From: Rugalucina vietnamica | Taxonomy: Eukaryota; Mollusca; Bivalvia; Lucinida; Lucinidae | Assembly (NCBI GenBank): GCA_964017185.1 | Contig: OZ024882.1 | Location: 42,763,431 to 42,827,430 of the forward strand | Length of the DNA: 64,000 bases | Direction: 5' to 3' | Part shown: piece by piece, positions 1,051-39,585 of the stretch | Position numbering within the stretch: the stretch's first letter is position 1 | Layout: every line of letters starts with the position of its first letter | Position numbers and translations under genes: made by a program | Notes under the pieces: model-generated | Database searches by the model: none | Seen by the model: only the letters and a program-made list of their open reading frames with translations | What the model was told of the DNA's origin: nothing

Positions 1051-4000
1051 CTAATGATTACTCGGAGTTATAATTTGAATAAATTTGCATAACTTTTTTA
1101 ATTCAATGATGTTTGTGGAGTTCATTAACTGCTTGAACTTCATTACATTAGGGTGTCTTCGATAATATGGTTTTATGTAATTGTGCCGTTCTTCCTGAAA
1201 ATATTCACATTTTAAAATATAATGAAACTCGTCACCGATATCTTTGTGACAAAAATGACATATTCTTTCATTTATAGCAATACCTGACCATCGGCCAAAT
1301 TCTATAGGATGTCTATGATTTCTTGTCCGAAATAATAGTAAAATTTTAGAGAAGTATTTAGGTAGTATGTACAAGTATTCACTAAAACCGAATTCATCTT
1401 TAAACAGTCTGTAATTTGTGCCACAAGTAGATGTATCGACGATTGAGGACCAGTTTTGCAGGTACTGGTCTTCAAGCTTCTGTGAAATAGCTACTTTTAG
1501 CCATTCTGTGTTTGGTACTGACTGTGATTCCCATAAACCGGAAAATCCGCATGTATTTAAAATGTGTTTAATATTATTTAAATATTCTGATTTTATTATG
1601 TTGTTTTTATGCATGTCATATATAATCTGGTACATTGAAGACGCAACTTGATTCCCTTCATGAGATAAAAGTTTAGACCAAAATGAAATCATTCTAGTTT
1701 TAATATCGATACTAATTGGTTTAACCCCTAATTCACCATATATCATGTATGTTGGTGTCGAACGTTTTAGATTAAATGCAAATTTTAAAAATTTAAGTTG
1801 TATTCTTTCCAGATCGTCAAGATTTCCGAAGCCCCATATTTCACTCCCATAGAGCAATATAGGTTTTACTGTTTTGTTAAATAATTCAATTTGTAAATCA
1901 ATCGTTAAGTTTAGAGATGCTTGTTCTGCTAGATACTTCTTATTTGTACGAAAAGAGCCACTACGTGACAAAAATATACCCAAATATTTATACTCACTTA
2001 CAATATCAATTTCGTTGTTTTCAAAAAAGAAGTGAAAGTTTTGGTTTGGACGTCCCCTGCCAAATACAATAATTTTAGTTTTCGAGACATTGACTTTTAA
2101 TTTCCAAGTTTTACAGTAATTTTCAAAAACATTCAGAGCGTGCTGCAAATGGTTAGGGTCCTCACCAAAGATGACAGTATCATCTGCATAGAGCAGTACA
2201 AATAATTTAAGAAATACAAAAATATCTTCAGAATGCAGTTCACACTTTATACCCGGGACGTGTTCAAAATTGAAGTAATGTTCTAAATCATTTAAAAATA
2301 TTGAGAATAAAAATGGTGACAAATTTTCTCCTTGTCTTACGCCTGCGCAGCATTCAAAGAATGGCGAAACTCCTTCTTGATTTTTTATCCTTGACTTTAT
2401 ATTAGCATACATATTTTTTATCACATTTAAGCACTTTCTATTTATATTATAGTTTTGCAGTTTATGCCAGAGACCACCACGCCATACCGTGTCAAACGCC
2501 TGTTTGAAATCGACAAATACACAGAATAATTTCTTATTTCGTGATTTAAGTATATCAATTAATGAATTTATAATAAAAATATTGTCTGAAGTTGAAAATC
2601 CTTTTCTAAAACCAGCTTGGCAGTCTGATATTACATGTTTATCATTCGAAAAATCGTTCAGTCTCTTATTAATGATTGCAGTGAACAGTTTGCCCAGACA
2701 GCTTAAAAGTGTGATCGGTCTATAATTTTCTGGACTTTGTATATTGCCTTTATGTTTGTAGATTGGAAGAATGTTACCTACAAGCCAGCTTTCTGGAATC
2801 AGCCCTGTATCAAAAACAAGATTGAATAGTTTTACATAGACAGGAAGCATGACACGTATAGTAGATTTTATATGTTCATTTAATACCCCATCTATTCCCG
2901 GGGATTTATTTTGTTTTAGAGTGTTTACTGCTTTAAGAATTTCATCTTCAGATATCTCTTTATTTATTGTTTCATTTATTTGTTGAGTCATGTCTGTGTC
3001 AAAACAGACTTCAGTATCATTGGATTCGCCCTTATTAATGTTTTTAAAAAAGTCGTATAACTCATTAAGTGGTGCAGATGAAATATTTTTATTTTTTCCA
3101 TCATCAAGTATACGCCAGAATTCTTTTGTATTTTAGCTTTTAAATCTACGTAATGTTTCGACTTTGTCATTTTTATACTTTTTGATACTTTTATGAACTG
3201 TATTTTTGTATGTTTTACTGACAGTTTTAAGCAAGTTTTTATAATATTCAGTTTTATGTATATTGTAAAGTCGCCTGACTTTGTGATACGTGTTACGTGC
3301 ATTTTTACATTCAAAAGAGAACCAGGGTCCGTTAGGTTTTTTCGAGTTATAAGGTTTTGCTTTTTTTATCCCAAACGTTTTTATGCAAGCGGACTCAAAG
3401 AGGCCCTCAATATCAGCTACTACAGAATCAATATCAGCCTTTTGAATGCGAGTGCATTTCAAGTTTTCAAGTGTCTGGTCAACTAACTGGAGTTTCTCCA
3501 TGTTGATATTCATTTCAAATGAATTTGCCTTATCACTGTTCCATGATATGACCTTTTCTGTTTTACCGCAGTTTTCAGCTTGTGTTTGAGCATTTACAGA
3601 AATTTCAGCATCAATTTTCAATTCGATTCCACAGTGTGAATCTGAAAAAAGTGATGAAAATTCTAAAACATTGAAATCATATAAATATTGTGTCATATTA
3701 GGTGAACATATGAAATAATCAATTGTACTACTGTTTTTGCATGTAAATTTCGGATAAGCAGAATCCTAGCCAAGCCTACCATTTATGAAAAATAAATCGT
3801 TGCCTTTACAAAACTCTATAAGTTGTTTTCCACAAATGTTTGTAGATCCATCAGCTGAATGTCTATCGAGAGGAAAGTTATTTTTATGTAGGCAACGCAA
3901 AACTTCTAAATTTTCTTCATAGATCATGTTATCGTTTTGCATATGTGACATAAACTCATCAACGACCACGAAATCGGGTAATGTAGCCGTTCTAGAGTTA

Positions 4001-4266
4001 AAATCGCCAAACAAGATCATATTCTTAAAATCTAGTTTATATGTATTTATCTCAGTTTGTATTTCGAGATACGGGTCTTGGTGTGCATATTTTGATCCGT
4101 AGGGTGGTACATAAACATTTCCGCACAGTATATCTGAGTCAGTATTTGTGAGGCTTTTCGAAATTCTGAACCACTGAACAAGGTTTGATTTGTTATCGTG
4201 AAATGAAATAAATGGAAATATCGAGCTTTTAACGAGAAGAGCTATATTAACTCCTGGGCCTTCTTT
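1051..4266 (-). pseudogene. Decayed non-LTR retrotransposon ORF2 (endonuclease-reverse transcriptase)
   Basis: One continuous minus-strand reading frame with two in-frame stops (TAG at 3766-3768, TAA at 3133-3135) encodes the C-terminal part of an apurinic-type endonuclease followed by a complete-looking reverse transcriptase. Endonuclease motifs: GDFNSRT just after 4020, and STIDYF just after the first stop. RT motifs in the 1051-2991 segment: SPGIDG (residues 30-35), NYRPITLLSCLGKLF (89-103), DFKQAFDTVW (161-170), GVRQGENLSPFLFS (217-230), catalytic YADD (268-271). The C-terminus has a Cys/His knuckle (CHFCHKD...FHYILKC). Reading stops upstream at a TAA at 4267-4269, so the first part of the endonuclease and any ORF1 are missing: a 5'-truncated copy. 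The clade (CR1, Jockey, I or other) is not resolved by eye. It is probably immobile, since both stops interrupt the same polyprotein. Confidence 0.93.
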
Positions 4267-14786: not shown

Positions 14787-15064
14787 AATGTAATATGTTA
14801 GCAATGAGGGCAAAACGAAACTTACATACCCAAAAAGTGTTGCAGGTTCTAGCATTGTGTGCCTTGTGGCGTCGAAAGTCCGAAATTTGGTTTGTAACTA
14901 TCTGATGTATTCATTAAATTAAAGTTAATACGGTACCAAATTGTGGTATCATCAATCTTGGCTATCGACAATTATTCAGTAATCTTAAATCCAAATTGAT
15001 TCAAAGTTCTCAACGTTTAGCCGTCAACGTAACCTATCAAAGAAAGAACTGAAACAATAACAAA

Positions 15065-15070
15065 TTTATT
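15065..15070 (-). terminator. AATAAA polyadenylation signal of the glycine-rich gene
   Basis: The minus strand reads AATAAATTTG here, 64 bases beyond the stop codon at 15134. This is the canonical signal at a sensible distance, giving a short 3' UTR of roughly 85-95 bases. Confidence 0.75.
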
Positions 15071-15133
15071 ATGAAAGCAAACAACTAAAATGTATACTCA
15101 TACGTACCTCTGATAAATTGATAAAATGTTGAA

Positions 15134-15654
15134 TTAATATTTCTTGTAGTACCAGATTCTGCAGTACCACCATCTTTTGTTGATCTTAAAGACGGGGGTG
15201 CTTGGCCATGGGCAATAGCCTGGGAATGGGAAGTAGTAAAATCCTCGCCTGATCCATCCGCCTCCCATGGCTGCGCCCCCGCCAAAATAGCCCGAACCAC
15301 CAGCTAAACCAGATGCACCAACCAGCCCCATACCCGGACCGCCAGCCATCCCACCGCTGTAAAAGCCCGCACCACCAGCACCAAAACCAGGACCGCCAGC
15401 AAACCCGCCGCTGAAACCAGTTGCACCGAACGGTCCCATGCCCTTCTTGCCCATGCCCTTCTTGCCCATGCTGCTCATACCGACGTTGCCCATGCCGTAG
15501 TAACCGTAACGGTCACCAATACCGACGTTAGCGCTGCCCAACGTAACCCCGGTTCCGATACCGCTAGCTACCATGGGACCAACACCCGGACCTGTCACTG
15601 CGGTACCACCTAATGCTGTTGCTGTAGATCCAAGTATTGCGGTGGCGCTGGCAG
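15134..15654 (-). other. Exon 3 of glycine-rich gene (Gly/Met/Tyr-rich body and tail)
   Basis: Acceptor CTTCTTTAAG ends at 15655. The exon completes a Ser codon with the last base of exon 2 and continues SATAILGSTATALGG-like sequence into GPGVGPMVASGIGTG. TAA is at 15134-15136. Glycine codons are mostly GGT/GGC, and the exon is far more GC-rich than the surrounding introns. Confidence 0.82.
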
Positions 15655-18600
15655 CTTAAAGAAGATAGACGAGGTTCGATTCAGGTCTGACAAAATTTAA
15701 TATAGGCCATTCAAAACGATGACTTAATCCTTGTGTCCTGGTGAAGTATTGTCAGTTGGGCGTGTCACCAGTAAAACCATTCAGATTCAGATTATTACTA
15801 ATTGCGCAAGTTCCTAATCATTGCTAAAGTATAACGTTTTGCAGTACGATAACATGCCCATGCAATATACATAGATTTTAAAGTGATAAAATAATGCAAA
15901 TTTTAAGTAGAAAATGTTGGATGTTTTTCTTATGTTTGCTCAAAACATAGATTGTGGGTACACGTTAGAACCGCCTCGACAAGGTAGTTCTAACGAGTAC
16001 CCACAATCTATGTTTTGGATTAACAGTAGGGAAAATATGCATACCCCTGCATATTCCAGTTTTTCTATATAACAAATGGGGCATAAGGGGGTATGTATTG
16101 CACGGTCATGTTTTCCTGATGTGTAAGCTTTAGAAAATATTTAGAAAGCAGCCGTCTTTGTCACCAGCCGAAATTTATCTTTCTTTTGATGCGGGGTACT
16201 ATTTGTGTTGTTTATGTCCTATTTCTAGGCTATCTTCTCTGAGCATGAATATTTGCCTGATGATTTTTCGTCAAAATATAAACAATTATGACTCTCGATA
16301 CTTAGTTTTGCTTTGTTTTAAGATATTGTGAAATAAATATAGGCACGTATAGCTATTGGGGTAGTCATCCTTTTTTAAATTTATATATTGAGAAAATTCC
16401 ATTGCTTAAAGTATACTATGCAAATTAAATTTAGCAATTTTTTAACATTCGCCAGTCTCTTTGCACATAATGAATAAAAGTCATATTTTGGAATATGGGC
16501 CTAAGTGGTAACCTTCCGGCAAGAACTTGCAATCGAAACATTTCGAAACAATCAAACCTTGACGTGACTTGATACTGACGTGACGTTACAATTTAAGACA
16601 TATGACCAAAACCTGCAGATCTGCTTTAAGTGGGAAACCAAAATCATGCTTAAGCAACTGTTCAGTCACCAAAACAAAGAAAAACATTCAAAATTTTTGG
16701 AGACAAAATTTTATCACCGAGAAATAAAGATCGTATTTTTTTTCTTTTGCTCCTACATTATCGCCTTACAGTTACGTTTCTAATTGGAATTTCCCCAAAA
16801 TCGGCAATGAGTTTTAATGTCTGATGCATACCGATATATGTTAAAATAAAGAGAGTTTGCAAAATTCCCTATCTTGGCTTCATAACGTGAACTTAAATGA
16901 TGATATTAACGTCAGCGTTATCTCACTAGCATGACGCGTACTTTCAAGTGTAAGTGACCACAGTATTGGCTACATTGTGCTTTGTTTGTCTTGTTTTATA
17001 AAAATCAATGGAAACCATATACATGTAGCCCGCAATGAAGGCAATTTCGACCACTTGACGGCGCGTTGACGTCATTTTTGGCAGGTAAAGTTTGTACTGA
17101 AAAAGCCCAATCTCAATTGTCACATAATCATCAACGTTCATAGAGAAGGGATGAAAAGGATGTGCCTATTGGACGTAACAAATGTCAGCTGTTTGCACTG
17201 TGTTCATTGGTTGAGAATTTTGCATTTTCATCTTTTCTGTATTTCTTGGTTGTTCCAGAAGCCTCTTAAAGGTTAGCATTTTTAAGTTCAGCGTATTATG
17301 TGCCTTAGACACTGTTCTTGTCATTTAAATTAAAGAACTGTCCAAAATTGCTCTATTGTGATCAAAAATATATGAGCCTGTGCGTGACAAAACCAACAAT
17401 TTGGGTTTCTGACCAGGTCCGACACAAACCGGCCTGTACTGTCACAGAAGCAGGCTAGAAACGTGAAATTTCGGATTTAAGAAGAAGAGGGATTGTACTA
17501 TCCATGTAGCGAAAACAAAGGCGCTGATCAGCTTCGCGGTTACCGCGAAGCTGATCTGCGTCTTTGTTTTCGCCTATGCAGATTGTTGGTTTTCTCATGC
17601 ACAGGCTCATATGTAACATCAACACTTGCTAAATTAACTTTGCATACTATATGTTCAGTTTTTGTTTACAATTGAAAAGACCTGATATAAATGTATTTCA
17701 ACGGAATGTGATTGAAACTTTTGACATACATACACAGAATATTAAACAAAATTCGAACGGAAAAATATAGATAAAATGAATATATACCTTGCAGGTCAAA
17801 TATTCTCATTTGCAGGAAATAAGTATGCATATATTTAAACGCATTTGTCTATTACATGTACATTTACAAAATATACGTAGAATAAACAAAACTGATTCCT
17901 GAATAGGGAAATGCTTATTAAATAAAATAATGTACAAGTCGATATATACATTACGAAAACTTGCCCATGCAATATACAGAGATTGTGGGTACGCGTTAGA
18001 ACCGCCTCGCTGAGTACCCACAATCTATGTTTTGGAGCAAAATAAGAAAAATAGGTACATGTATACCCCTGCATACCCCAGTTTTATTATATTAAAGTGG
18101 GGTATAAGGGGGTATACATTACACGGACATGTTATCCTGATGTTTCTACTCTTATGTGGTGCTACTGGCAGTATCCCTCACCCAACTCCATCAAAAGATT
18201 TCTATTCCGGTTGATAAAAAGGTACACGTAGGCAATGATCAGGAAATGGAGCAATCAGAAAGAAATTCCCACTCCACAAACCGAGGGGTGGGAAAAAAAC
18301 TAAAATGACACTTAGGTACTTATACCAAGAAAACATATCGTAAGCCGAGTGAGCAGCTATTCCGCAATAGGCGGCCACTCAGTTACCCGAACTGAACTAA
18401 AAATATGAAAACCTACATAAGGCTCAAACAGCACAGCAATTCGACTCCAACACACAGAACAATTAGTACCAGAACAGAAGTATCACCTTGAAGCGATCCG
18501 TAATATAAAATCAAAATCCTGGATATTATAAGTTTTAAATCCTAAAATGCTCTTAAAATAAGGTTTCAAAAAGTGATGAGCACACGTTTAGGTTAGAACA

Positions 18601-19966
18601 TAGACATACGATGATAACAAAATTATAAAATTTTGATAAATATAAGATGAGATACAAAGCCCATATCCCACTTACTTAATAGCCGAACATCGCAATCATA
18701 TTTCGCGGAGTTTTCCGGCCATTAGTTATGCAGAATAATAAATATATTTTAGTTTCGTATTTCTTCAAAAATGTTTTTCGTTGTTTGATCAGTATTTGTA
18801 CGATTTCAAACACATTTGGTTGGTATATTTAAAATTTTTGTCCATGAAAAATGTAATATAATTTGTTTGTTTTTTTCTCATTTTCGAAAATTTATATCTT
18901 TTGAAAAAGGATGGTTACCCCCACGAATTTGTGTGTCATTTTGTTGCTCTCCACCTATATTTCAAGATATCTATTCATAAGAGGTTTTCTATCATCAAGC
19001 AGTTGTATCGAAAGTCTCTAAATCAAAACAAAAAATAAAAAAAATAATCTTATCGTTTTCTCGATTGATTTTCTTATCAGTTATACCTAACAATATCTCC
19101 AGATAGAATGGCAGCATGGTACTTACATCCCCCGAAGGCGTCACCACTGGAACCGAACACAGGACCAAAGTAGGTAGGAGACATAACATCCCCGACATTG
19201 GGTCCACCAGGAAAACCACCAGGAAAACCACCAGGAAAACCACCGGGAAAACCACCAGGAAAACCACCGGGAAAACCACTAGGAAAACCACCAGGAAACC
19301 CCGCACCTCCTTTTTTGACAGGTGGCCAATATCTTGCTGCAATGTGATCGTTTTAGATAAAAAAAAACATTTGATTCACTAGCTCTAACTGCCTACAACA
19401 CTGGTTATAACGAAGGAGGTGGTGTCGATTGGGAATTTAAAACAATAATAATAAAAAAATAGCCTTTATTTCATTTTTTTTTATAGTTCAGCTGCAGTAA
19501 AGACCCTATTACATGTATACATATATTGCGTATGCGTGTCTGCATAAAATATAAAATAAAATTCAAAACACTTAGCTTTTTGGTTTCATTAAACATATGT
19601 ACGTTATTGAATCAAATGGGCGTCGCACCGCCAATAGGGGTACATACACTGTACCTTAGTATGCCGATTCTACAAATGAATAATAATTGAGCCGCCGCAT
19701 GGGAAAACCAACAATCTGCATAGGCGAAAACAAAGGCACATATCAGCTTCACAGCGCCTTTGCGGATAGTACAATACCTCTACTTTCTCAATCCCAAATT
19801 TCCAGCCTCTAACCATCTTCTGTGACTGTACATGCTGGTTTGTGTCAGACCTGGTCGGAAACCAAAAAAATGTTGGTTTTCTTACGCACAGGCTCAATTT
19901 TAATAACTTACCCTTTGCAATACCAAGGCAGCAAACGACCAACAGATATACAAGTCGAAGATCCAT
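15134..19966 (-). CDS. Secreted glycine-rich protein, shematrin-like shell-matrix candidate
   Basis: Three exons join in phase: 19966-19912, 19336-19127 and 15654-15134 (55, 210 and 521 nt; 261 aa plus stop). Splice sites are canonical: GTAAGT donors follow exons 1 and 2, and AG (TTGCAG, CTTTAAG) precedes exons 2 and 3. Exon 1 encodes a signal peptide (MDLRLVYLLVVCCLGIAKA) with an A-K-A cleavage site completed by exon 2. The mature chain starts RYWPPVKK and has eight FP(G/S)G repeats (about residues 32-63), then a long Gly-rich region with GKKGMGKKGMG, GGFAGGPGFGAGG and GGMAGGPGMG blocks. It ends in an aromatic/basic tail, ...RIWYYKKY. Signal peptide, Gly/Tyr-rich body and a basic KKY end are the pattern of pearl-oyster shematrins, thought to act in the shell organic framework. 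A byssal or other extracellular glycine-rich protein is the main alternative. The start is the first ATG after the predicted cap site. Confidence 0.8.
15845..16122 (+). mobile_element. Family B double-hairpin MITE, copy 2 (in intron 2)
   Basis: Starts ATAACATGCCCATGCAATA and ends TGCACGGTCATGTTTTCC. Central palindrome around 15930-16020 with arms reading GGTACACGTTAGAACCGCC and its complement. It lies within intron 2 of the host gene. Confidence 0.9.
17373..17609 (+). mobile_element. Family D hairpin MITE, best-preserved copy (in intron 2)
   Basis: 237 bp, ends TGAGCCTGTGCGTGACAAAA and TTTTCTCATGCACAGGCTCA, flanked by TA on both sides (17371-17372, 17610-17611). Internal near-perfect palindrome at about 17509-17572 with GCTGATCAGCTTCGCGGT and its complement. 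TA duplication plus inverted ends suggests a Tc1/mariner-type MITE. Confidence 0.9.
17949..18142 (+). mobile_element. Family B MITE, copy 3, hairpin-deleted (in intron 2)
   Basis: Starts CATTACGAAAACTTGCCC and ends GACATGTTATCCTGATG. Most of the left palindrome arm is missing: GCCTCGC joins directly to TGAGTACCCACAATC. The second stem (TACCCCAGTTT...GTGGGGTATAAGG) is intact. Confidence 0.9.
18215..18500 (+). repeat. Family A repeat, left-half copy (in intron 2)
   Basis: AAAAAGGTACACGTAGGCAA through ACTCCACAAACCGAGG, GTAAGCCGAGTGAGCAGC and GGCCACTCAGTTACC. More diverged than the long copies; ends near AAGCGATCCGTAA. Confidence 0.8.
19127..19336 (-). other. Exon 2 of glycine-rich gene (GGFP repeats)
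   Basis: Acceptor CACATTGCAG before 19336 and donor GTAAGTACC after 19127, with a poly(T) tract upstream of the acceptor. 210 nt, multiple of three, phase 1 at both edges, so it could be skipped without changing frame. It encodes RYWPPVKKGGAG, the repeats, and PNVGDVMSPTYFGPVFGSS. Confidence 0.82.
19203..19298 (-). repeat. Coding minisatellite, eight 12-bp FPGG units
   Basis: Eight tandem 12-base units (TTTCCTGGTGGT type), each encoding Phe-Pro-Gly-Gly, except the second, which encodes Phe-Pro-Ser-Gly. Synonymous changes (CCC for CCT) recur between units, as expected for unequal exchange. Copy number is likely to vary between alleles. Confidence 0.85.
19688..19896 (-). mobile_element. Family D MITE, reverse copy (in intron 1)
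   Basis: Ends TGAGCCGCCGCATGGGAAAA and TTTTCTTACGCACAGGCTCA. Orientation is reversed relative to 17373-17609. The hairpin is reduced, and the right end lies only 15 bases from the exon 1 donor. Confidence 0.88.
19912..19966 (-). other. Exon 1 coding part (signal peptide)
   Basis: ATG at 19966-19964; 18 codons and one base, then donor GTAAGT (19911-19906). Charged N-terminus (MDLR), hydrophobic core (LVYLLVVCCLGI), then the A-K-A motif shared with exon 2. A signal peptide in its own exon is common in secreted shell-matrix genes. Confidence 0.85.
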
Positions 19967-20021
19967 AGTTGCTGCAAACGTCCTGTACAACGTCAAATTC
20001 TGAGAAGCCGTACGCCGCTAC

Positions 20022-20054
20022 TGAGAGTGGTAAAGCATAGACGGCCTATATATA
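20022..20054 (-). promoter_or_regulatory. TATA box and initiator of glycine-rich gene
   Basis: The minus strand reads TATATATAGG at 20054-20045, and TCAGTAG, an initiator-like site, with its A at 20022, 32 bases downstream. This predicts a 56-base 5' UTR before the ATG at 19966, with no intervening ATG. Confidence 0.7.
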
Positions 20055-20059
20055 CACTG

Positions 20060-23057: not shown

Positions 23058-24310
23058 TGTATTTTTTAAATATTTGACCGGTGTCAAGTTGGATGAAAAT
23101 TTCATCCGGTGAAAATTTCATCTAGCAGAAGAAAAAAAAAGTTGGATGAAAATTTCATCTGGACCTGCCCAGGAAAAGTGGTTCATGTCAAAACAAATCC
23201 TGCTCCCGTACTAGCTCTTTTTTAGGCAAGCAGCTTATACTGCAATATAGATACATGTTGTATGGAGGTTTGTGGTAAGCCTCAGTAGTCTGGGCGACAA
23301 AAGTCAGAGGGGGGGGGGGTCAAAATGTTTCTTTCAATATTTCTCGAGATTCTGTTCCGAAACCAGCTCTTGTGCCAGCAAGTCGCTTGTACTGCGATAT
23401 AGATAAATGTTCTATAGAGGTTTGTGGCAAATTTCATCAGGATTGAAAGAGGATCCGAAGGGTAGTCAGGTCGCCAAAAGTCAGACGGGGGGTGTCTAAA
23501 ATGCGGTTTTTGATATTCCTCGGTCTCCTGCTCCCAAACCAGCTCTTGTGCCAGCAAGCCGCTTATGCTTGAATATAGGTATATGTTCTATGAAGTTTTG
23601 TTGCAAGTCTCATCAGGATTGAAAAAGGATGAGATGGATAGAAAGGGCGCCAAATATCAGAGGGGTGTCCATAATGCTGTTTTCAACATTTCTCGATCTC
23701 CAGCCCCCAAACCATCTCTTGTGCCACCAAGCCGCATATACTGCGATATAAGCGTATGTTCTAAGAAGGCCTTAAACAAGTCTCATAAGGATTGGAAAAG
23801 GATGAGAATAATAGCCAGGGCGCCAAAAGTCAGTAGAGTGTCAGTAGAGTGTCCAACGTGCTGTTTTAAACATTTCTCGATCTCTAGCCCCCAAACCAGC
23901 TCTTGTGCCACTAAACCGCTTATACCACCATATAGGTAGATGTTGTATGAAGGGACATGGCAAGTCTTATTATGATTGAAAGAGGATGAGAAGGGTAGGC
24001 AGGGTGCTAAATATCAGAGGGGTATCCAAATAATGATTTCAAAATTTCATTGACTTCAGACCCCAAGCCAGCTCTTTTGCCAGCATTCGGCTTATACTGT
24101 GAACGTGTTGTACAAGATTTTTGTTTGTTTTCGAGTTTAAAATCTTAATTATTGATTTTCTATTTAAAGCAATAAAATTTTGTTAGACATTTTTTGAGCG
24201 TATCCCCATAGAAACGTGCTCGCCATCCACGATTTTTAGAATAAGGCAAACCAAACCATCTGGACATTATGGTTTGTGTTTATGGTTCTTTAAATGATGA
24301 TATATGAATG
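23058..24310 (+). repeat. Left arm of a giant inverted repeat (diverged satellite units)
   Basis: Reverse-complement match to 38360-39585, from TTGGATGAAAATTTCATCC at the outer edge to CCATCTGGACATTATGG and ATGATATATGAATG at the inner edge. It contains degenerate about-175-bp monomers marked by GCAAGTCTCATCAGGATTGA and CCAGCTCTTGTGCCAGCAAG. Confidence 0.88.
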
Positions 24311-25020
24311 TAGTACTACGACATGGATGTATAGTATATACAAGTATGTGGCAAGTCTCATCAGGATTGAAAGAGGATGAGATGGGTAGCCAGACCCCCC
24401 GCTATGTTAGAGGGGGGTGCAAAAAATTATTTTCGATCTTTCTCGGTCTCTGGCTCCCAAACTAGCTCTTGTGCCAGGAAGCCGCTTATACTGCAATAAA
24501 GGTATATGATATATGGATGTATGTGGCAAGTCTCATTAGGATTGAAAGAGGATGAGGAGGGTAGCCAGGTCCCCAACGGCTCTAGGGTCATATTTTCCTG
24601 TACAGAATTGGCTATTTTAGCGCTTGTGCCAGGAAGCCGCTAGTACTACGACATAGATGTATAGTATATACAAGTATGTGGCAAGTCTCATCAGGATTGA
24701 AAGAGGATGAGATGGGTAGCCAGGGTCCCCAATGTCATGGGGTGTGTCAAAAATTCCATTTTCGAGAGTTTTCGGTTTCCTGCTCCCAAACTAGCTCTTG
24801 TGCCAGGAAGCCGCTAGTACTACGACATAGATGTATAGTATATATAAGTATGTGGCAAGTCTCATCAGTATTGAAAGAAGATGAGATGGGTAGCCAGGGC
24901 CCCCAATGTTATGGGGTGTGTCAAAAATTCCATTTTCGAGAGTTTTCGGTTTCCTGCTCCCAAACTAGCTCTTGTGCCAGGAAGCCGCTAGTACTACGAC
25001 ATAGATGGCGTTTTATACAA
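24311..25020 (+). repeat. Satellite monomers, plus orientation
   Basis: Four monomers with GTGGCAAGTCTCATCAGGAT, GATGAGATGGGTAGCCAG and AGCTCTTGTGCCAGGAAGCC. The array is interrupted by the LTR element and resumes at 34287. Confidence 0.88.
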
Positions 25021-26835
25021 GTCACATAGACGACCGAGGGCTAGTGCAGTCTGATCATTTACCACTAGGCCACTAACACTTCCAAACCTTTGACTGAAAT
25101 TTCAGCTATTAACTGAGTCAACACTAAGCAAAATAAATGGTTATTGACAAATAACCACTGTATGTAGGTCACCTTGACACTCAGTCTCTAACCACTGTAC
25201 CGCAAGCACTTACAAAGCTTAGATTCACAGACCCGAGATGCAGTTACCATTTCCATGTTTATTCAGAGAACAAAAAACATATATACAAATATTTACAAAT
25301 TCATGAACACACACATACTTCACACATACCCATACATTCTTAATATTTTCCTAAGTGTTTCAGCTAAATTAAATTTAGAATTTAAATTTCTTAAATTTAA
25401 GGTTTTGATTTAAACTATACTGCACAGTCTTATTTCAATTTACTCTACTGAAGTTCAATTTTAAAGTTAACTATTTCACGTTCAGTTATTTCACTTCATG
25501 TTTATTTAATATATGTTCATTCCCGACTCGCCCTGTTGATGAAATGAGTCCAGGTATACTGCTCCACGTTGATGACCACTGCGACTGTCAGATGGAAAGC
25601 ATGCTTATGATGATATTCGTATCTCCCAAAATAGCAAAGTTTATTTCAAATTCAGTATCTGTATTTCATGACGTCATATTAGCCCTTTCGCGGTTACAAT
25701 GTCCCAATATAGACATGGACCTCCATACTAATGTTCTTTCACACCATGAGTATGTACATCACTGTAGCCGTTTTCTACAGTTTATGAAACATTCTGGAAT
25801 TTCAGGTCCCCTTTCATGCTGATGGGTTGGATGTGGACACTAGTGACAATAAATGTCCTGATCTAGAGCTGATTTCTCCAATCCCATTTTAAAAGGGCTA
25901 AAAGAAACAAAATGCTGATTTTAGGATCAAATATTTGGGAATCCATACTAATTTTGAGCAGTATAATTCATTTCACTTTTCTAAATGTCTTTATTTGAAT
26001 TATGAAGTATTTTAGAGTCACTATAACTGTTACTCAGACATTAAGATACAGTAGAGTTTAAAAAGTCAATATGTGCCTTTCTAATTTTGTGCAGTATACA
26101 ATTTAGTAAAAATATACTAAAATTTACTGAAAATTTCAGGAAATATAAATCTAACCATGAAACTTTACTTCTTCATAAAACCACTATACTTTAGCAGATG
26201 AAACACACATTCCAAGCAAAAATAAAAAAAATAAAAATTATTAGCTAATGAAATCTGCCTCAAAATTTTGATATTGCATGAAAATTGAGTTTAAACCTTG
26301 AAGCATTTCACAGCTAGGACACATTGTCTGTAAGGGCTTGAAGTTGAAAATTTGGACCAAAGGGACAATTTTGCCATTTCACAGACAACTTGGAATGAAA
26401 GTGTTCCATTTCTGATAAATAAAACCATTTAAATTTAAATGCATATAAATGAGACTCTTTGCACTAAGGGACAAAGCCATTAGCAATTAAAATGGGCAAG
26501 GGAAAGGAGGAAATTTCAAACAATTTCAAATATACCTCTGTTCCAGCCCTTTTTCTCTTCAGAGCTCTCTCTCTTTCAACATCTCAGCATAAAATGACAC
26601 TCACAAAACAGGTTTGCAGTTTTCAAAACGCTCACCTGAGGTTACTGAAGCGTTGAAGCATTTAACAATGGATTACCATATTTAAAGTACCAAATTGGGA
26701 TAGGTAAAATAACATAGTTTTTTACCTGGATTATTAAATACTCTCCAAAAATTGGTACCCCCCAAAAAACCATGTAAAAATGCCTGATTTCAGCCATCCC
26801 CAATAAAATAAAATAATATTATCTTAATTGTGACA
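25021..26835 (-). repeat. 3' LTR (left) of the gypsy element
   Basis: 1,815 bp, nearly identical to 32471-34286. The first base expected at 25020 is A instead of T. The reading frame at 25544-25822 is repeated at 32994-33272 in the other LTR but has no recognised motif. Confidence 0.93.
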
Positions 26836-26850
26836 TTTACTCCCCCCTTA
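26836..26850 (-). promoter_or_regulatory. Polypurine tract
   Basis: The minus strand reads TTAAGGGGGGAGTAAA immediately before the 3' LTR begins TGTCACA. This is the expected plus-strand primer for reverse transcription. Confidence 0.85.
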
Positions 26851-26957
26851 ACAAAAGTGTTCACACTTTTTACTTTCACAGTTAAGATTAAGAAATTACT
26901 ATTTACATCACTGTCTTTCATCACTGTTTTTCATCACTGTCTCATTATTTAAATCTT

Positions 26958-28294
26958 TTACTGTCTACTAAGGTAATCAGCACCAACATTATCGCTGCCC
27001 TTGATTGAATGAATTGTGAATCTATACGGCTGCAGCAGTAATGCCCAACTCATTAACCTTGCATTTGACACTTTGGCCTTGTTGAGGTACAACAATGGCT
27101 GGTGATCTGTCTCAATTATTAATTGCTTCCCATACAAATATCTCTGAAACTTTTGAATGGCCCACACTTAAGCCAAACATTCTTTCTCCACTGTAGCGTA
27201 AGCCTCTTCTCTAGCTAACAGCTTTCTACTGGCATACGCAACTGGCCACTTTACATTATTTTCCTCTTGTAACAGTACTGTTCCAATTCCACGGTCAGAT
27301 GCATCTGTCCTCAGTGTAAACACTTGTTGAAGATCAGGTAATTTGAGAATTGGACTTACTGATAACATTTTCTTCAATGTGCTGAAAGCATATTCTTGCT
27401 CTTGAGACCATTTCACTTGATTTGGTTGTCCTTTCCTTGTTAGGTCTGTTAATGGTGCTGCTATGACAGCAAAATTTGGGATAAATTGTCTATAATACCC
27501 TACTAAACCTATGAATGATTTCACTTGTCTCTTTGTCACTGGTCTTGGTGCTTCTGCTATTGCCTTAACTTTATCTGGATGTGGCTGTAGCCTATCATGT
27601 CTTAATACATGTCCTAAGCATTCCAGACTTTCATAACCTATGAAGCATTTTGATGGTTTTGCAGTTAACCCAGCCTCTTTAAGTCTATGGAACAGATCAA
27701 ACAGTACCTTCGTATGTTCTGACCATGTCATTGTGAAAATGAGAATGTCGTCAATGAAATTGTCAAGATTCTCCGTGTTTACTAGCAAAATTCGCATCAA
27801 ACGGCTAAAAACTGCTGGCGCATTGACTTGAACTGGTATAACCCTAAGGGTGTTGAGAATGCTGTGAGCTGCTTTGACCGATCACTCATTGGAACTTGCC
27901 AATATCCTTTTGCGAGATCTAATTTAGAAAAGCATCTATGTCCTGAAACTTTCGCAAACATATCTTCAGCACTTGGCATTGGTTCAGCGTCAAAGATTGT
28001 TATTCGGTTTAACACCCTAAAATCTATACAGCATCTGTTTGTTCCATCTTTCTTTTTTATCATGACTATTGGAAAACTGTAAGGTGACTGTGATCGTTCA
28101 ATCACATCCATTTCAATCATTTTCTGAACCTCAGTTTTCACGTCTTCTATTACATTATGCGGCATAGGATACTGTTTAACCTTAACAGGTTCTGATGATG
28201 TCAACTTGATATCACATTCAACCAGATGAGTTTCTCCTGGAATATCAGTGAACACTTCTGGAAATTCCCTCAAAATTTCTAGTGCTTCATTTTT
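26958..28294 (-). pseudogene. gypsy RT-RNase H, broken
   Basis: 28273-27797: RT with QYPMPHNVIEDV, RCCIDFRVLNRIT and CFSKLDLAKGYWQVPM (first catalytic Asp). Near 27800-27830 a small deletion changes frame and removes the conserved tract that normally precedes NAPAVFSRLM. 27800-27168: FIDDILIF (catalytic pair), CLGHVLRHDRLQPHPDK, FIGLVGYYRQFIPNF, then RNase H starting FTLRTDASDRGIG. An in-frame TAA at 27168-27170 separates this from the last part (TDHQPLLYL, GSDNVGADYLSR, end 26958). The start of the RT frame overlaps the integrase end in another frame at an A6 run near 28293. Confidence 0.93.
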
Positions 28295-30342
28295 TGTTCT
28301 ACTGACAGATCAGGATTTATATTCACATTTTCTACTGTCTCAGTTTGTATGTCACTTGACAAAGCTGGAATAGCACTGGTATCACTGTCTCTTGATTCCA
28401 CATCTTCATTCTGCTCTATATCTATGATAGCAACATTAGCTTCTGCTAAGGCATCATTTTCATCTATCTGCTTGTCTTCTCTTTCCACATACAGTCTCAG
28501 CATATTGATATGGAAAGTCTTAAGCTTGCCTTTTGTATCAACACGATAATCTAGAGGACCCACTTTCTCTGTAATGACATATGGTCCTTTCCATTGCATC
28601 AACATTCTGTTTGTGCTAGTAGGAAGAAGAATAAGAACTTTGTCTCCTGCTTTCAATTGTCTGTCTCTAGCTTTCCTGTTGTATGCAACTTTGTATCTAG
28701 CTGAGGATTTTCCTAGATTTTCTCTAGCTAACTCACAGGTTCTTTCTAGTCTTTCCTTCAAATCAAAGATGTATTGATATGTAGTTTTCACCTCTGGATC
28801 TTGAACCTCATGTGTCCACAACTCTTTCAAAATAGTCATTGGGCCTCTTACACTGCGACCATACAATAACTCAAATGGTGAGAATCCAGTGCTTTCTTGT
28901 GGTACTTCTCTGTATGCAAATAACAGTGAATTTAAGTATTTGTCCCAATCTTTTGGTTTCTCATGGCACATCTTCTTCAACATTTGCTTTAGGGTACCAT
29001 TGAATTTCTCAACGAGCCCATTGCACATTGGGTGGTATGGGGTCGTGGTAAGCTGACGCATAGAAAGTAGACGACTTACTTCACTCATTAACTCTGAAGT
29101 AAACTGGCTGCCCATATCTGATAACATCTCTCTTGGAACACCCACTCTACTGAAAACATCTACTAACGCTTCTGCTACCCTCTCAGTTTCTATTCCAGGT
29201 AAAGCTACAGCTTCTGGATATCTTGTTGCATAGTCAACAATAGTAAGAATGTAACGGTTCTTCCTATCTGTTGGTGGATCTATTGGTCCCACTAAGTCAA
29301 CAGCAATACGTTGAAAAGGTATGTCCATCATTGGCATTTTTCCTAATGGTGCTTTCGGTACTTTCCCTTTTGGAATGGTACGCTGGCATATGTCACATGA
29401 TTTGCAAAATCTTGAACAGTCTGCCTGACATCCTGGCCACCAAAAGTCAGTTAATATCCTACTAACTGTCTTCTTTGATGAGAAATGACCTGACAACACA
29501 GTTTCATGAGCTAGTTTCAAAACTGTGCTGCGAAACTGTTTAGGCACAACTAATTGAGATGACTCATCCTGAGAACTTGATTTGAATTTTCTGTAAATAA
29601 GGCCTTTCTTCATTACAAACATAGACTTTCCTCCTTTCGAAACCTTTTGATCACCACTCTGAACCATCTCTCTTACTGTTTTCAAAGAACTTTCCTCTTG
29701 TTGGCCTTTTTTCATCTCTTCTGGTGTGCATTCTATTTGCAGGGCCTCTGGTACTTTCAACTTCTTGTATGTCTTAGCTTCTTTCTTTTGTGCTCTGGTT
29801 TCCACAGCTTGCACAAGTTGCCAATTAGGATCTGGCTCTCCTGGTAGTCTTGCTCCCTCAATATTTCCAACTATCAAATCATATACAGGGTTTTGCATAC
29901 ACCATGCTTCAACTTCACCTTTGAAATAAGGGGTATCTATTTCAATCGTAGCTACTGGAGATGATATCTTTGTACCATCAATCAAAACACACATTTGATT
30001 TTTCCCATTCAGCTGATCCTGTCTCACTAAACTTTGCTTAATGACAACACCACTACATCCTGTATCACGAAGAAGATTAACAACACGTCCATTAACTATA
30101 CCTTGACTAACCGGCATTCTAGGAGGATGGCATAATTGATTTTCACATGCTGAACTAAGAATAGCAGTACTCTCAGTAATGCTAGGTGTCAGTATAGAAC
30201 AATGGCCACACACATTAGGTACACTGCTACTATCTGGTAGTGCTTGAGCACCTGCAGTCACCTGCCCACTGCCTTGACCTCGACCTTGGCCTCTTCCTCT
30301 GGATGGTCTTGGATATCTCCCTCTATATTGTCCTCGTATATT
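28279..30342 (-). pseudogene. gypsy protease-integrase part of polyprotein
   Basis: In frame with gag once the hAT-type MITE is disregarded. An RG-rich linker (RGRGQGRGQG) leads to an aspartic protease with LLRDTGCSGVVI. The integrase has an HHCC finger (HETVLSGH ... CKSCDICQR), catalytic D in AVDLVGPID, D in LSDMGSQF and E in NGLVEKFNGTLK, then a GPY/F module (WKGPYVITEKVGPLDY) and an acidic tail. The frame ends at 28279 (TAG). The segment itself is open for about 660 codons. Placement of the integrase directly after the protease is the unusual feature. Confidence 0.94.
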
Positions 30343-30350
30343 GTTACCAC

Positions 30351-30897
30351 TAGTGTTGGGTATCGGTCGCGAAAATCACTATCGATTATCGGAGCACATT
30401 AGTCGATTGATTATCGATTGTACAATCGAAATGTATGTTCCCCTTACATTAACCAGTGAAGTGATTAAAAATGCTCAGTATTTGACAATGTAGTGACAAG
30501 TCACTGCATCATGCCCCTTCTCTGTATTTAAATTGAACATAGCCAATAATATATTAAGGCCACATTTTCTACAAATGATAAAGTGACCATGTGATAGATT
30601 ATTGCTGTAGCACATAGCATAGAAAAACCTAACTATAAACAGTGAAGATTGTCAAGTGATGCTTTAATAAGTGAATATTAACAATGCATTCAAGTCTAAA
30701 TGAAGGCAGACATAAGGAGGCATCATTGTGACAAATGAATTGAATTTGTAACAACATTTTATGTTAGTAAATGTTTTTACTATACACTCATGTATTTAAT
30801 TTCGATTAATCGATAGTGGAAAATTCCAATCGATAGCTACCGATAGAAGCTAGATTCCGATAGTTATCGATTATTTCGATTAATCGGCACAACACTA
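30351..30897. mobile_element. hAT-type MITE inside the gypsy ORF
   Basis: 547 bp with ends TAGTGTTGGG and CAACACTA and a perfect 8-bp duplication GTTACCAC at 30343-30350 and 30898-30905. Subterminal ATCGATTATCGG-like and CCGATAGTTATCGAT words extend the inverted ends. Length plus one duplication is 555 bp, a multiple of three, but the MITE brings a stop just inside its gag-side end. No transposase. Confidence 0.95.
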
Positions 30898-32133
30898 GTT
30901 ACCACTGTAACCTGTTGAATTATCCACTTCGTATTGTTTATTTCCTGCATTCACCTCTGCCTCTGCTGCTAAAGTATTCTGCTTTGCTTTACATTCAAAG
31001 GAATAATGCCCTTTACCATTACATAAATAACAAGTCTTATCTCTCTTTGATTTATGAAAACTGTCTTGAGAACCTTTCTGTGGTGGAGATGGAGTTGATT
31101 GTTGAGCATTTCCTGGCCTTGGCTCTGTCTTTCTAGGTTTGTAAATCAAATTTGTGTTGCTACCACCTCGTGCTTCTCGATACTGGTCCGCATAGGTTGT
31201 CATCTCTTCTATATTCTTAGGCACTCTCTCCTTGAGAAACAAAGTTAGCTCCCTATTACAACTTTGAAGAAACTGCTCTCTTATAAGCAAATCAAACAAA
31301 TCATGATATGTCTTCTTAGTATTTGACAAATCCATCCACCTATCTAAGTATCTTGCTAACCTACCTGCAAATTGGGCAAATGTTTCTCCAACTTCAGGAC
31401 GACAGCTTCTAAACCTTTTCCTGAACCCTTCATCTGTCATTTCAAATCTCTTTAGGAGAGCTTCCTTTAAAACATTATATTCTTGTGCTTGTTCTGCAGG
31501 AATTCTTGAATAAACTTCTAAAGCTTTTCCTTTAAGAAGTGCACTTAAATGTGTTGCCCAGTCAGTCTCCTGCAACCCTTGTGACCTAGCATATCGCTCG
31601 AACCTTTGAAGATATGCATCCATATCATCTTTGTCCTCATCGAAATATGGTAACTTTGGAATCCTAGCACTAAGAGTGCGTTCCACAACCGGCGTGACAT
31701 GGTAACGGTCCTGAGCTTCCATTAGATCAATTTTAAGCTGATACTCAGTTTTCTCTTTTCTAATTGTAGCCTCACTTAATTCTAAAGCAGCATTTAATTC
31801 ATGTGCTTTCTCTTCCTTCTCCCTATCAATCTCAAGCTTTCTCAATTGTTCTTTATGCTCAAGCTCAGCTAAGTGTTTTTCATGCTCACGTTTCTTTTCT
31901 GCCTCAATGTCTGTTAAGCGTTTAATTTCTAATTCATGCTCGCGTTTTGCCTTTTCATTTTCACGTTGCTCTCTTTCAGCTTCCCTACGCGCTTTGCGTT
32001 CATCTCTTTCACTTATTTGCTGATCCCGTACAAAAGTTTGTAAGTCCGTACCTTCATAACCCAATGCCTGACCAAGCTCAGTCCATTCTTTTACCAAAGC
32101 CATTGTACTATGTGAAACATAAAATTGATACAC
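30895..32133 (-). pseudogene. gypsy gag, C-terminally cut by MITE
   Basis: About 400 codons, likely start at MALVKEWTELG (32103) rather than the earlier ATG at 32133. Residues about 40-150 are a highly charged E/K/R-rich coiled coil (REAEREQRENEKAKREHELE). Capsid-like part: YFDEDKDDMDAYLQRFERYA, LLKGKALEVYSRIP, YNVLKEALLKRFEMTDEGFR, ETFAQFAGRLARYLDRWM. Zinc knuckle CYLCNGKGHYSFEC. The frame closes at 30895 on a stop contributed by the MITE; without it the frame continues into the protease. Confidence 0.93.
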
Positions 32134-32448
32134 TTTTTAATATTGGGTGTATTGGGGTTTGAATAAATTTACCCAGCTACATGGAGCATAACCTATGTGA
32201 TAATACCCTCTTACCCAATTGGAAAATAAATTGCCAATAAAGTATCACAGTTTCAAAGATGCCACTTGAAAATGTTTATGGACATCTAACGAATAGACGA
32301 CGGACAACGAAGGCTGCCTGCCTATACTATGCGCTATCCTTTAAACCTCAGATAAGTCAAATTGGATGGGCTAAAGGGGGGGGGGGGGGCTTTGGTCAAT
32401 GTAACCGAGCTGTGAATATTAGAATTTAAACACAGTTTGAACTGCACT
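32134..32448 (-). other. gypsy 5' untranslated leader
   Basis: Between the primer site and gag. Contains a G13 run at about 32378-32390 on the plus strand. Nothing else recognised. Confidence 0.7.
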
Positions 32449-32466
32449 ATCCCACTTCTGACACCA
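32449..32466 (-). promoter_or_regulatory. Primer-binding site, tRNA-Leu type
   Basis: The minus strand reads TGGTGTCAGAAGTGGGAT four bases after the 5' LTR. This is complementary to the 3' end of a leucine tRNA (…CCCACTTCTGACACCA type). Confidence 0.85.
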
Positions 32467-32470
32467 AAAA

Positions 32471-34286
32471 TGTCACATAGACGACGAGGGCTAGTGCAGT
32501 CTGATCATTTACCACTAGGCCACTAACACTTCCAAACCTTTGACTGAAATTTCAGCTATTAACTGAGTCAACACTAAGCAAAATAAATGGTTATTGACAA
32601 ATAACCACTGTATGTAGGTCACCTTGACACTCAGTCTCTAACCACTGTACCGCAAGCACTTACAAAGCTTAGATTCACAGACCCGAGATGCAGTTACCAT
32701 TTCCATGTTTATTCAGAGAACAAAAAACATATATACAAATATTTACAAATTCATGAACACACACATACTTCACACATACCCATACATTCTTAATATTTTC
32801 CTAAGTGTTTCAGCTAAATTAAATTTAGAATTTAAATTTCTTAAATTTAAGGTTTTGATTTAAACTATACTGCACAGTCTTATTTCAATTTACTCTACTG
32901 AAGTTCAATTTTAAAGTTAACTATTTCACGTTCAGTTATTTCACTTCATGTTTATTTAATATATGTTCATTCCCGACTCGCCCTGTTGATGAAATGAGTC
33001 CAGGTATACTGCTCCACGTTGATGACCACTGCGACTGTCAGATGGAAAGCATGCTTATGATGATATTCGTATCTCCCAAAATAGCAAAGTTTATTTCAAA
33101 TTCAGTATCTGTATTTCATGACGTCATATTAGCCCTTTCGCGGTTACAATGTCCCAATATAGACATGGACCTCCATACTAATGTTCTTTCACACCATGAG
33201 TATGTACATCACTGTAGCCGTTTTCTACAGTTTATGAAACATTCTGGATTTTCAGGTCCCCTTTCATGCTGATGGGTTGGATGTGGACACTAGTGACAAT
33301 AAATGTCCTGATCTAGAGCTGATTTCTCCAATCCCATTTTAAAAGGGCTAAAAGAAACAAAATGCTGATTTTAGGATCAAATATTTGGGAATCCATACTA
33401 ATTTTGAGCAGTATAATTCATTTCACTTTTCTAAATGTCTTTATTTGAATTATGAAGTATTTTACAGTCACTATAACTGTTACTCAGACATTAAGATACA
33501 GTAGAGTTTAAAAAGTCAATATGTGCCTTTCTAATTTTGTGCAGTATACAATTTAGTAAAAATATACTAAAATTTACTGAAAATTTCAGGAAATATAAAT
33601 CTAACCATGAAACTTTACTTCTTCATAAAACCACTATACTTTAGCAGATGAAACACACATTCCAAGCAAAAATAAAAAAAAAATAAGAATTATTAGCTAA
33701 TGAAATCTGCCTCAAAATTTTGATATTGCATGAAAATTGAGTTTAAACCTTGAAGCAGTTCACAGCTAGGACACATTGTCTGTAAGGGCTTGAAGTTGAA
33801 AATTTGGACCAAAGGGACAATTTTGCCATTTCACAGACAACTTGGAATGAAAGTGTTCCATTTCTGATAAATAAAACCATTTAAATTTAAATGCATATAT
33901 ATGAGACTCTTTGCACTAAGGGACAAAGCCATTAGCAATTAAAATGGGCAAGGGAAAGGAGGAAATTTCAAACAATTTCAAATATACCTCTGTTCCAGCC
34001 CTTTTTCTCTTCAGAGCTCTCTCTCTTTCAACATCTCAGCATAAAATGACACTCACAAAACAGGTTTGCAGTTTTCAAAACGCTCACCTGAGGTTACTGA
34101 AGCGTTGAAGCATTTAACAATGGATTACCATATTTAAAGTACCAAATTGGGATAGGTAAAATAACATAGTTTTTTACCTGGATTATTAAATACTCTCCAA
34201 AAATTGGTACCCCCAAAAAACCCATGTAAAATGCCTGATTTCAGCCATCCCCAATAAAATAAAATAATATTATCTTAATTGTGACA
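32471..34286 (-). repeat. 5' LTR (right) of the gypsy element
   Basis: 1,816 bp. Starts TGTCACATAG and ends TTGTGACA on the plus strand. Differences from the other LTR include single changes near 33248, 33463, 33757 and 33899 and length changes in an A run near 33670 and at the C/A run near 34211. Confidence 0.95.
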
Positions 34287-34500
34287 ATGTGGCAAGTCTC
34301 ATCAGGATTGAAAGAGGATGAGATGGGTAGCCAGACCCCCCACTATGTCAGAGGGGGTGCAAAGAATTACTTTCGATCTTTCTCGGTATCTTGCTCCCAA
34401 ACTAGCTCTTGTGCCAGGAAGCCGCTTATACTGCAATAAAGGTATATGATATATGAATGTATGTGGCAAGTCTCATTAGGGTTGAAAGAGGATGAGGAGG
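34287..34500 (+). repeat. Satellite monomer, plus orientation, up to inversion point
   Basis: Resumes the array interrupted by the LTR element. At about 34500 plus-oriented GAAAGAGGATGAGGAGG joins reverse-oriented GGAGCAGGAAACCGAAAACT: the centre of the large inverted repeat. Confidence 0.88.
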
Positions 34501-37500: not shown

Positions 37501-38359
37501 GGCACAAGAGCTAGTTTCGGAGCAGTAGACCTAGAAGTGTCGAAAATAGCCAATTCTGTACAGAAAAATATGACCCTAGAGCCGTTGGGGGCCTGGCTAC
37601 CCTCCTCATCCTCTTTCAATCCTAATGAGACTTGCCACATACATTTATATATCATATACCGTTATTGCAGTATAAGCGGCTTCCTGGCACAAGAGGTAGT
37701 TTGGGAGCAAGAGACCGAGAAAGATCGAAAATATTTTTTTTTGCACGCCCCTCTGACATAGTTGGGAGTCTGGCTACCCATCTCATCCTCTTTCAATCCT
37801 GATGAGACTTGCCACATACTTGTATATACTATACATCTATGTCGTAGTACTAGCGGCTTCCTGGCACAAGAGCTAGTTTTGGAGCAGGAAACCGAAAACT
37901 CTCGAAAATGGAATTTTTGACGCCCCCATGACATTGGGGGCCCTGCCTACCCATCTCATCCTCTTTCAATCCTGATGAGACTTGCCACATACTTGTATAT
38001 TATATACATCTATGTCGTAGTACTAGCGGCTTCCTGGCACAAGAGCTAGTTTGGGAGCAGGAGACCGAAAACTATCGAAAATGGAATTTTTTGACACCCC
38101 CCATGACATTGGGGGCCCTGGCTACCCATCTCATCCTCTTTCAATCCTGATGTGACTTGCCACATACTTTTATATACTGTAACATATACATTTATCACAG
38201 TACTAGCGGCTTCCTGGCACAAGAGCTAGTTTCGGAGCAGTAGACCTAGAAGTGTCGAAAATAGCCAATTCTGTACAGGAAAATATGACCCTAGAGCCGT
38301 TGGGGGCCTGGCTACCCTCCTCATCCTCTTTCAGTCCTAATGAGACTTGCCACATACAT
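34501..38359 (-). repeat. Higher-order satellite array (about 175-bp monomers, 708-bp period)
   Basis: About 22 monomers in reverse orientation, each with CTCATCCTCTTTCAATCC, GAGACTTGCCACATAC and GCGGCTTCCTGGCACAAGAG. Four variants alternate, told apart by GCAGGAAACCGAAAACTCTC, GCAGGAGACCGAAAACTATC, GCAGTAGACCTAGAAGTGTC and GCAAGAGACCGAGAAAGATC. The third recurs at about 34868, 35576, 36117, 36825, 37537 and 38256: steps of 708, 541, 708, 712 and 719. Short reading frames repeated across the array follow the monomer and are not genes. Confidence 0.95.
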
Positions 38360-39585
38360 TCATATATCATCATTTAAAGAACCATAGACACAAACCATAA
38401 TGTCCAGATGGTTTGGTTTGCCTTATTCGAAAAATCGTGGATGGCCAGCACGTTTCTATGGGGACACGCTCAAAAAATGTCTTGCAAAATTTTATTGCTT
38501 TAAATAGAAAATCAATAATTAAGATTTTAAACTCGAAAACAAACACAAATCTTGTACAGCACGTTCACAGTATAAGCCGAATGCTGGCAAAAGAGCTGGC
38601 TTGGGGGCTGAAGTCAGTGAAATTTTGAAATCATTATTTGGATACCCCTCTGATATTTAGCACCCTGCCTACCCTTCTCATCCTCTTTCAATCATAATAA
38701 GACTTGCCATGTCCTTCATACAACATCTACCTATATGGTGGTATAAGCGGTTTAGTGGCACAAGAGCTGGTTTGGGGGCTAGAGATCGAGAAATGTTTAA
38801 AACAGCACGTTGGACACTCTACTGACTTTTGGCGCCCTGGCTATTATTCTCATCCTTTTCCAATCCTTATGAGACTTGTTTAAGGCCTTCTTAGAACATA
38901 CGCTTATATCGCAGTATATGCGGCTGGGTGGCACAAGAGATGGTTTGGGGGCTGGAGATCGAGAAATGTTGAAAACAGCAATATGGACACCCCTCTGATA
39001 TTTGGCGCCCTGTCTATCCATCTCATTCTCTTTTAATCCTGATGAGACTTGCAACAAAACTTCATAGAACATATACCTATATTCAAGCATAAGCGGCTTG
39101 CTGGCACAAGAGCTGGTTTGGGAGCAGGAGACCGAGGAATATCAAAAACCGCATTTTAGACACCCCCCGTCTGACTTTTGGCGACCTGACTACCCTTCGG
39201 ATCCTCTTTCAATCCTGATGAAATTTGCCACAAACCTCTATAGAACATTTATCTATATCGCAGTATAAGCGGCTTGCTGGCACAAGAGCTGGTTTCGGAA
39301 CAGAATCTCGAGAAATATTGAAAGAAACATTTTGACCCCCCCCCCCTCTGACTTTTGTCGCCCAGACTACTGAGGCTTACCACAAACCACCATACAACAT
39401 GTATCTATATTGCAGTATAAGCTGCTTGCCTAAATAAGAGCTAGTACGGGAGCAGGATTTGTTTTGACATGAACCACTTTTCCTGGGCAGGCCCAGATGA
39501 AATTTTCATCCAACTTTTTTTTTCTTCTGCTAGATGAAATTTTCACCGGATGAAATTTTCATCCAACTTGACGCCGGTAAATATT
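38360..39585 (-). repeat. Right arm of the giant inverted repeat
   Basis: Mirror image of 23058-24310, including the unique-looking piece around 38370-38560 (AATAAGGCAAACC-type complement) and the outer TCATCCAACTTGACGCCGG edge. Confidence 0.88.

Follow-up and report, generated by a model that had tools for sequence, protein, structure and literature searches.

On its minus strand, the window analysed here (the whole 64,000-nucleotide stretch, C14 42,763,431-42,827,430) carries a predicted three-exon gene at 20022-15134, called A1 below, which is judged to be a real gene because relatives in the same genome support it. Its features, in order of transcription, are as follows.

20045..20054, minus strand: TATA box TATATATAGG of the core promoter, with its T at 20054
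20021..20024, minus strand: initiator-like TCAG, the A at 20022 being the putative transcription start
19912..19966, minus strand: coding part of exon 1 (55 nt, ATG at 19966), encoding the predicted signal peptide MDLRLVYLLVVCCLGIAK and the first base of the next codon
19337..19911, minus strand: intron 1 (575 nt, GT-AG, phase 1)
19127..19336, minus strand: exon 2 (210 nt), with RYWPPVKKGG, the FPGG repeats and the first half of the VMSPTY core module
19204..19298, minus strand: 12-bp tandem repeat coding for FPGG (7.9 copies, 92% matches)
15655..19126, minus strand: intron 2 (3472 nt, GT-AG, phase 1)
15134..15654, minus strand: exon 3 (521 nt with the stop TAA), starting SASATAILGSTATALGG and holding the second half of the core, a Gly/Met/Tyr-rich body and the tail
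15435..15471, minus strand: 15-bp repeat coding for KKGMG (2.5 copies, 100% matches)
15137..15256, minus strand: basic, aromatic, two-cysteine tail WIRRG...YYKKY, found in nine copies, all on C14
15102..15107, minus strand: donor-like GTACGT, 27 nt after the stop, a weak candidate for a 3'UTR intron
15065..15070, minus strand: AATAAA

A sequence-only reading of this DNA had proposed three exons with canonical, phase-consistent joins and a 261-aa product, and reading and splicing the minus strand between 20200 and 14900 reproduces all of this. The product begins with MDLRLVYLLVVCCLGIAKA, continues with RYWPP, (FPGG)n and KKGMGKKGMG and closes with WIRRGFYYFPFPGYCPWPSTPVFKINKRWWYCRIWYYKKY, so that the layout of FPGG, KKGMGKKGMG and YYKKY described in that reading is present in the spliced translation. 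When four distinct acceptor choices were translated, one frame ran to the terminal KKY only with the joins originally proposed. The signal-peptide start is also borne out, as a hydrophobic stretch of 18 residues in an exon of its own, judged by hydropathy. A 23-base pattern written to resemble the KKGMG repeat gave no match.

The gene is embedded in repeats, as had been noted, in a region rich in transposon-like open frames and tandem arrays. Two plus-strand open frames of 137 aa (25409-25822 and 32859-33272) differ by one residue and enclose, on the minus strand, gag/pol-like frames carrying a CCHC motif; 25409-33272 resembles a young LTR retrotransposon between its LTRs. This LTR-like element is flanked by satellite-like arrays of a 173-175-bp unit in up to 21 copies (23292-25007 and 34500-39323). 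Further along the window, 55879-57176, 60488-60980 and 62005-64000 hold arrays of 128-bp repeats and, running to the window end, a 211-bp tandem array. At 1051-4266, on the minus strand, a reverse-transcriptase-like frame adjoins an endonuclease-like frame, presumably a non-LTR retrotransposon-like copy. By eye, intron 2 contains a short inverted-repeat element in two places (about 15940-16016 and 17975-18034), as in a small hairpin transposon.

The sequence-only reading had described a single gene. The gene stands, but it is not alone: it is one of at least 11 related genes on C14, all family counts being lower bounds. The genome searched comprises 1.09 Gb in 47 contigs, of which 18 were sampled for length (11 from C1-C17 measuring 35-102 Mb and 7 from C18 on below 90 kb); C14, at 53 Mb, is among about 17 chromosome-size contigs, and 17 is also the chromosome number of fan mussels and soft-shell clams. 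The number of C1q genes fits a bivalve: there are 516 candidates, of which 150 were scored and matched, the rows listed all exceeding the cut-off, and PMC4759782 gives 296 and 335 C1q gene models for two bivalves and 12 for a limpet. The host is probably no Pinctada, as a nacrein sequence had a single match, at just 28%, and a P. margaritifera shematrin-9 primer had none. A 16-residue accripin11 peptide of Pinna nobilis gave no match either, an outcome that carries no weight. The 13 matches to the exon-3 product of A1, none containing a stop, reduce to 11 distinct genes. All of them lie on C14, with two at 34.70-34.72 Mb, eight (A1 among them) at 42.73-43.11 Mb and one at 44.28 Mb. Genome-wide searches with the tail and with the exon-2 module found nine and seven copies, respectively, again all on C14, and the first part of the class-B genes was found at three of the four known ones (B4 was missed), with one further weak place at 43.095 Mb (E 0.016). 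The members fall into two classes, with positions in Mb on C14.

Class A, seven genes: A1 (the window gene), A2 34.716, A3 42.730, A4 42.936, A5 44.279, A6 42.967, A7 42.991
Class B, four genes: B1 34.704, B2 42.849, B3 42.907, B4 43.110

Class-A genes have three coding exons, one for the signal peptide, one for a variable stretch ending VMSPTY...SGDAYGG and one starting SANAFATLGSTATAFGGTAVTGPGVGPM that carries the body and the tail, while class-B genes have two, a signal-peptide exon and one long exon with CxGK(H/Y)CG near its start. All 16 introns modelled across the family are GT-AG and phase 1, and each of the six class-A genes with a located exon 1 has 55 nt of coding sequence in it. When 295 kb were scanned blind, on both strands, for an ATG, a hydrophobic stretch and a strong phase-1 donor, 12 places came up, nine of them already located by an earlier upstream scan; ten were assigned as family first exons and two were others. 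The place at 42,891,601 is a probable first exon of B3, 15 kb upstream, by its likeness to the first exons of B1 and B2. A signal-peptide exon was thereby located for 10 of the 11 genes, and none was found for A5 in the 4.7 kb scanned upstream. Adjacent, divergently oriented genes, one of class A and one of class B, occur both at 34.704-34.716 Mb and at 42.78-42.85 Mb, an arrangement that would fit the copying of an A-B block to a site 8 Mb off with its order inverted.

The promoter pattern recurs across the family. In A1 the TATA box lies 32 bases before the initiator-like A, just as first described, and its score was reached in 3 of 1000 shuffles. A TATA box followed by GGCC aligns in six of the seven class-A genes, which are those with a located exon 1. 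Under a loose initiator motif, eight of ten genes as scored allow a TATA-to-A distance of 31-32; A6 scored 34 (32 under another TATA register) and B1 35 with the same loose motif. TATA scores exceed those of shuffles at p<=0.05 in 8/10 genes, the exceptions being B2 (0.45) and B3 (0.11). A strict rule for TATA and initiator spacing holds in 7/10 genes, all except B1, B2 and B4, and, as background, at 40 positions out of 6000 drawn at random and at 104 ATGs out of 12,651.

The 3' end is less uniform. The AATAAA that had been pointed out near the stop is indeed present in A1, but it reads AATATA in A3 and GATATA in A2 with the flanks still aligning, and its role as an element is doubtful because neither of these closest paralogs conserves it. 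The GTACGT shortly after the stop has a shuffle p of 0.018 and a score of 8.5, compared with 9.5-14.0 for the 16 modelled donors. Over the 60 nt that follow the stop, the top-scoring donor-like GT has a shuffle p that ranges from <0.002 to 0.158 among the 11 genes and falls below 0.05 in four (A1, A4, A5 and B4); A5 alone has one whose score lies in the range of the modelled donors. That A1 might contain a 3'UTR intron is a guess from these letters.

Five class-A genes and all four class-B genes share the two-cysteine aromatic tail, of 36-40 residues. The basic K-K-Y end that had been likened to shematrins, whose hallmark is a short basic C-terminus ending K/R-K-K-Y, is present in A1 as YYKKY, but KKY closes only four of these nine tails, the other five ending KKF, KKR, KKSLG, KKLG and FK. 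In A6 and A7 a basic eight-cysteine tail replaces the aromatic one, with the core module as in A1.

C14:42966691-42967032: A6, with the eight-cysteine tail
C14:42991581-42991898: A7, with the eight-cysteine tail

Two weak further copies of the eight-cysteine tail (E 4.4e-4 and 0.04) were seen in a 249-aa open frame at C14:43072693-43073394.

The aromatic tails do not sort by class, which suggests exchange within the cluster. In a tree of 108 tail columns, A1-A3 join B1 and B2 (97/98) and A4 and A5 join B3 (84/84), and forcing the four B tails together was rejected (AU p 0.0064). With the tail extended by 20 codons and 40 nt of UTR, B1 and B2 pair alone (96/99) and larger groups are weak (76/79); the extended alignment marks B3 and B4 as long rows and gives an AU p of 0.048. 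These short alignments suggest exchange or conversion of the tail within the cluster, and swapped 5' parts would give the same tree pattern. An AlphaFold model of the tail alone, from single-sequence input, has three strands (mean pLDDT 67.5, pTM 0.38), and a PDB fold search with it gave 18 hits up to E 10, of which none reached 0.001.

Tail and core are under purifying selection as estimated by the Nei-Gojobori method. For the tail (36 codons, 9 genes) pooled pN/pS is 0.276, with dN<dS in 35 of 36 pairs; for the core (60 codons, 7 genes) it is 0.296, with dN<dS in all 21; and for the signal peptide (18 codons, 6 class-A genes) it is 0.44, with dN<dS in 15/15. Whole proteins are less constrained, their ratios lying above the pooled tail and core values: A1 and A3 are 89% identical (dS 0.109, dN 0.062, ratio 0.57), and A1 and A2 78% (dS 0.297, dN 0.140, ratio 0.47). 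These estimates bear on the idea that the locus holds open frames only, decayed or never expressed and derived from repeats, in a region crowded with transposon-like frames and tandem arrays. Such an origin is highly improbable given 11 open copies, phase-1 GT-AG introns and the recurring promoter pattern, and a decayed repeat locus was rejected on dN<dS.

The mature A1 protein, of about 242 residues, has 31% Gly, 10% Pro, 9% Phe, 8% Ala, 6% Tyr, 4% Met and 6.6% K+R, with a pI of 9.9. Across the 11 proteins, A5 and B3 being counted without signal peptide, Gly makes up 24-40%, Met 2-7% and D+E at most 3.1%, and the pI is 9.3-9.9. Four of them (A1, A6, B2 and B4) were scanned against Pfam, with no family at E up to 1, and a PDB sequence search with A1 gave a single chain (E 0.14), which covered no more than residues 47-71. 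Among the primers for P. margaritifera shell genes in the accessible part of PMC4133174, 20 of 22 were looked up in 295 kb and gave no match at up to 3 mismatches, and the shematrin-9 forward primer gave none genome-wide at up to 2 mismatches; a difference in species may explain both results. Six family motif strings had no match in the literature text searched, which says little because sequences mostly sit in figures and supplements.

This composition also suits proteins of byssus, ligament and periostracum, which weighs against a reading confined to the shell. Byssal matrix proteins are basic and contain Gly, Tyr and Lys, as do the proteins of this family, which could be foot-secreted thread matrix or adhesive proteins with an extensible Gly-rich body and Tyr/Lys cross-links. 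We regard this as unlikely, although a serious candidate: it is for shematrins that the sequence-only reading gives this pairing of a Gly-rich body and a basic K-K-Y terminus. A hinge ligament or similar elastomer, built on flexible Gly/Phe/Pro/Met repeats such as GGPGF and FPGG, would fit the Phe, Pro and Met set in the Gly-rich A1 protein, but Met is just 2-7% in the family and a basic tail of this kind, with two cysteines, is not known to us from abductin or any ligament protein. We consider this alternative quite improbable. It has a precedent in LMP, a Met-rich protein that the portion of PMC7591529 consulted lists as one of the major insoluble constituents of the ligament in P. fucata.

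Beside the gene structure, family, promoter pattern, selection and composition, which are computed, stand secretion, assembly, docking or cross-linking and tissue, which we infer. The explanation we favour, with a probability of about 0.62, is that A1 is a secreted extracellular framework protein from a family of at least 11 genes on one bivalve chromosome, the shell being the likeliest place. An epithelial cell would transcribe the gene from its TATA/initiator promoter, the signal peptide would be removed and the basic protein exported. Its flexible Gly-rich body would then self-associate into an insoluble silk-like mesh, while the conserved tail, basic and aromatic with two invariant cysteines, would dock the protein to an acidic or polysaccharide matrix or, alternatively, serve as a cross-linking site through Tyr, Lys or a disulfide. 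By analogy, the destination is most likely shell or periostracum, with byssus and ligament as live rivals; in the shell, the protein would form part of an organic framework (that of prisms, nacre or periostracum), the role given to shematrins, which the available passages of PMC4660305 and PMC3191542 present as glycine-rich framework proteins.

As to origin, it can be proposed tentatively, and with some doubt, that the family does not descend from shematrins and represents an independent shematrin-like toolkit, lineage-specific, silk-like and confined to a single chromosome. Its interchangeable modules would be the signal exon, the VMSPTY core, the repeat body and either the aromatic two-cysteine or the eight-cysteine tail, and it would have evolved by module swapping inside one cluster, with the tail exchanged between the two classes. 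Homology is difficult to recognise among repetitive, fast-changing shell-type proteins, and the C14 family can be traced on one chromosome with its promoters, introns and module boundaries. The origin of such proteins by duplication, repeat expansion and tail exchange becomes testable in one species, and the conserved tail is a natural candidate for a binding or cross-linking function.

Among known systems, shematrins, the Pinctada shell matrix proteins reportedly described by Yano et al. in 2006, have a signal peptide, a Gly-rich repetitive body, a basic end and clustered genes in common with this family. The resemblance to shematrins that had been suggested holds for architecture (signal peptide, Gly-rich body, and a basic end that closes with KKY in four of nine tails), but its support is limited to that. 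Unlike shematrins, which are compared here by description, A1 has the VMSPTY/SANAFATLGST core module, the FPGG and KKGMG repeats and the 36-40-residue two-cysteine tail. With abductin and the Met-rich ligament proteins A1 appears to share, in composition, a Gly-rich body with Phe and Met; A1 differs in its 4% Met and its basic two-cysteine tail. In P. fucata, according to the section of PMC4759782 consulted, five shematrin genes are tandemly arranged in two scaffolds. Shematrin-like transcripts also appear in the part of PMC6641155 on Perna viridis, so that shematrin-like names extend beyond pearl oysters. Two P. margaritifera shematrin primers in the accessible part of PMC4133174 read WRWRYR and WWRKYR in one frame and resemble the A1 tail, a weak lead. 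Finally, the lysine-rich matrix proteins (KRMP), in which, according to the excerpt of PMC3120837, a Gly/Tyr-rich C-terminus comes after a Lys-rich region, are, like the family proteins, basic, Gly/Tyr-containing and secreted (the latter as predicted here). In A1 the order is reversed, the Gly-rich part preceding the basic aromatic tail, and K+R is 6.6%, whereas A4 and A5 resemble KRMP in having a short Lys-rich patch ahead of the Gly-rich part.
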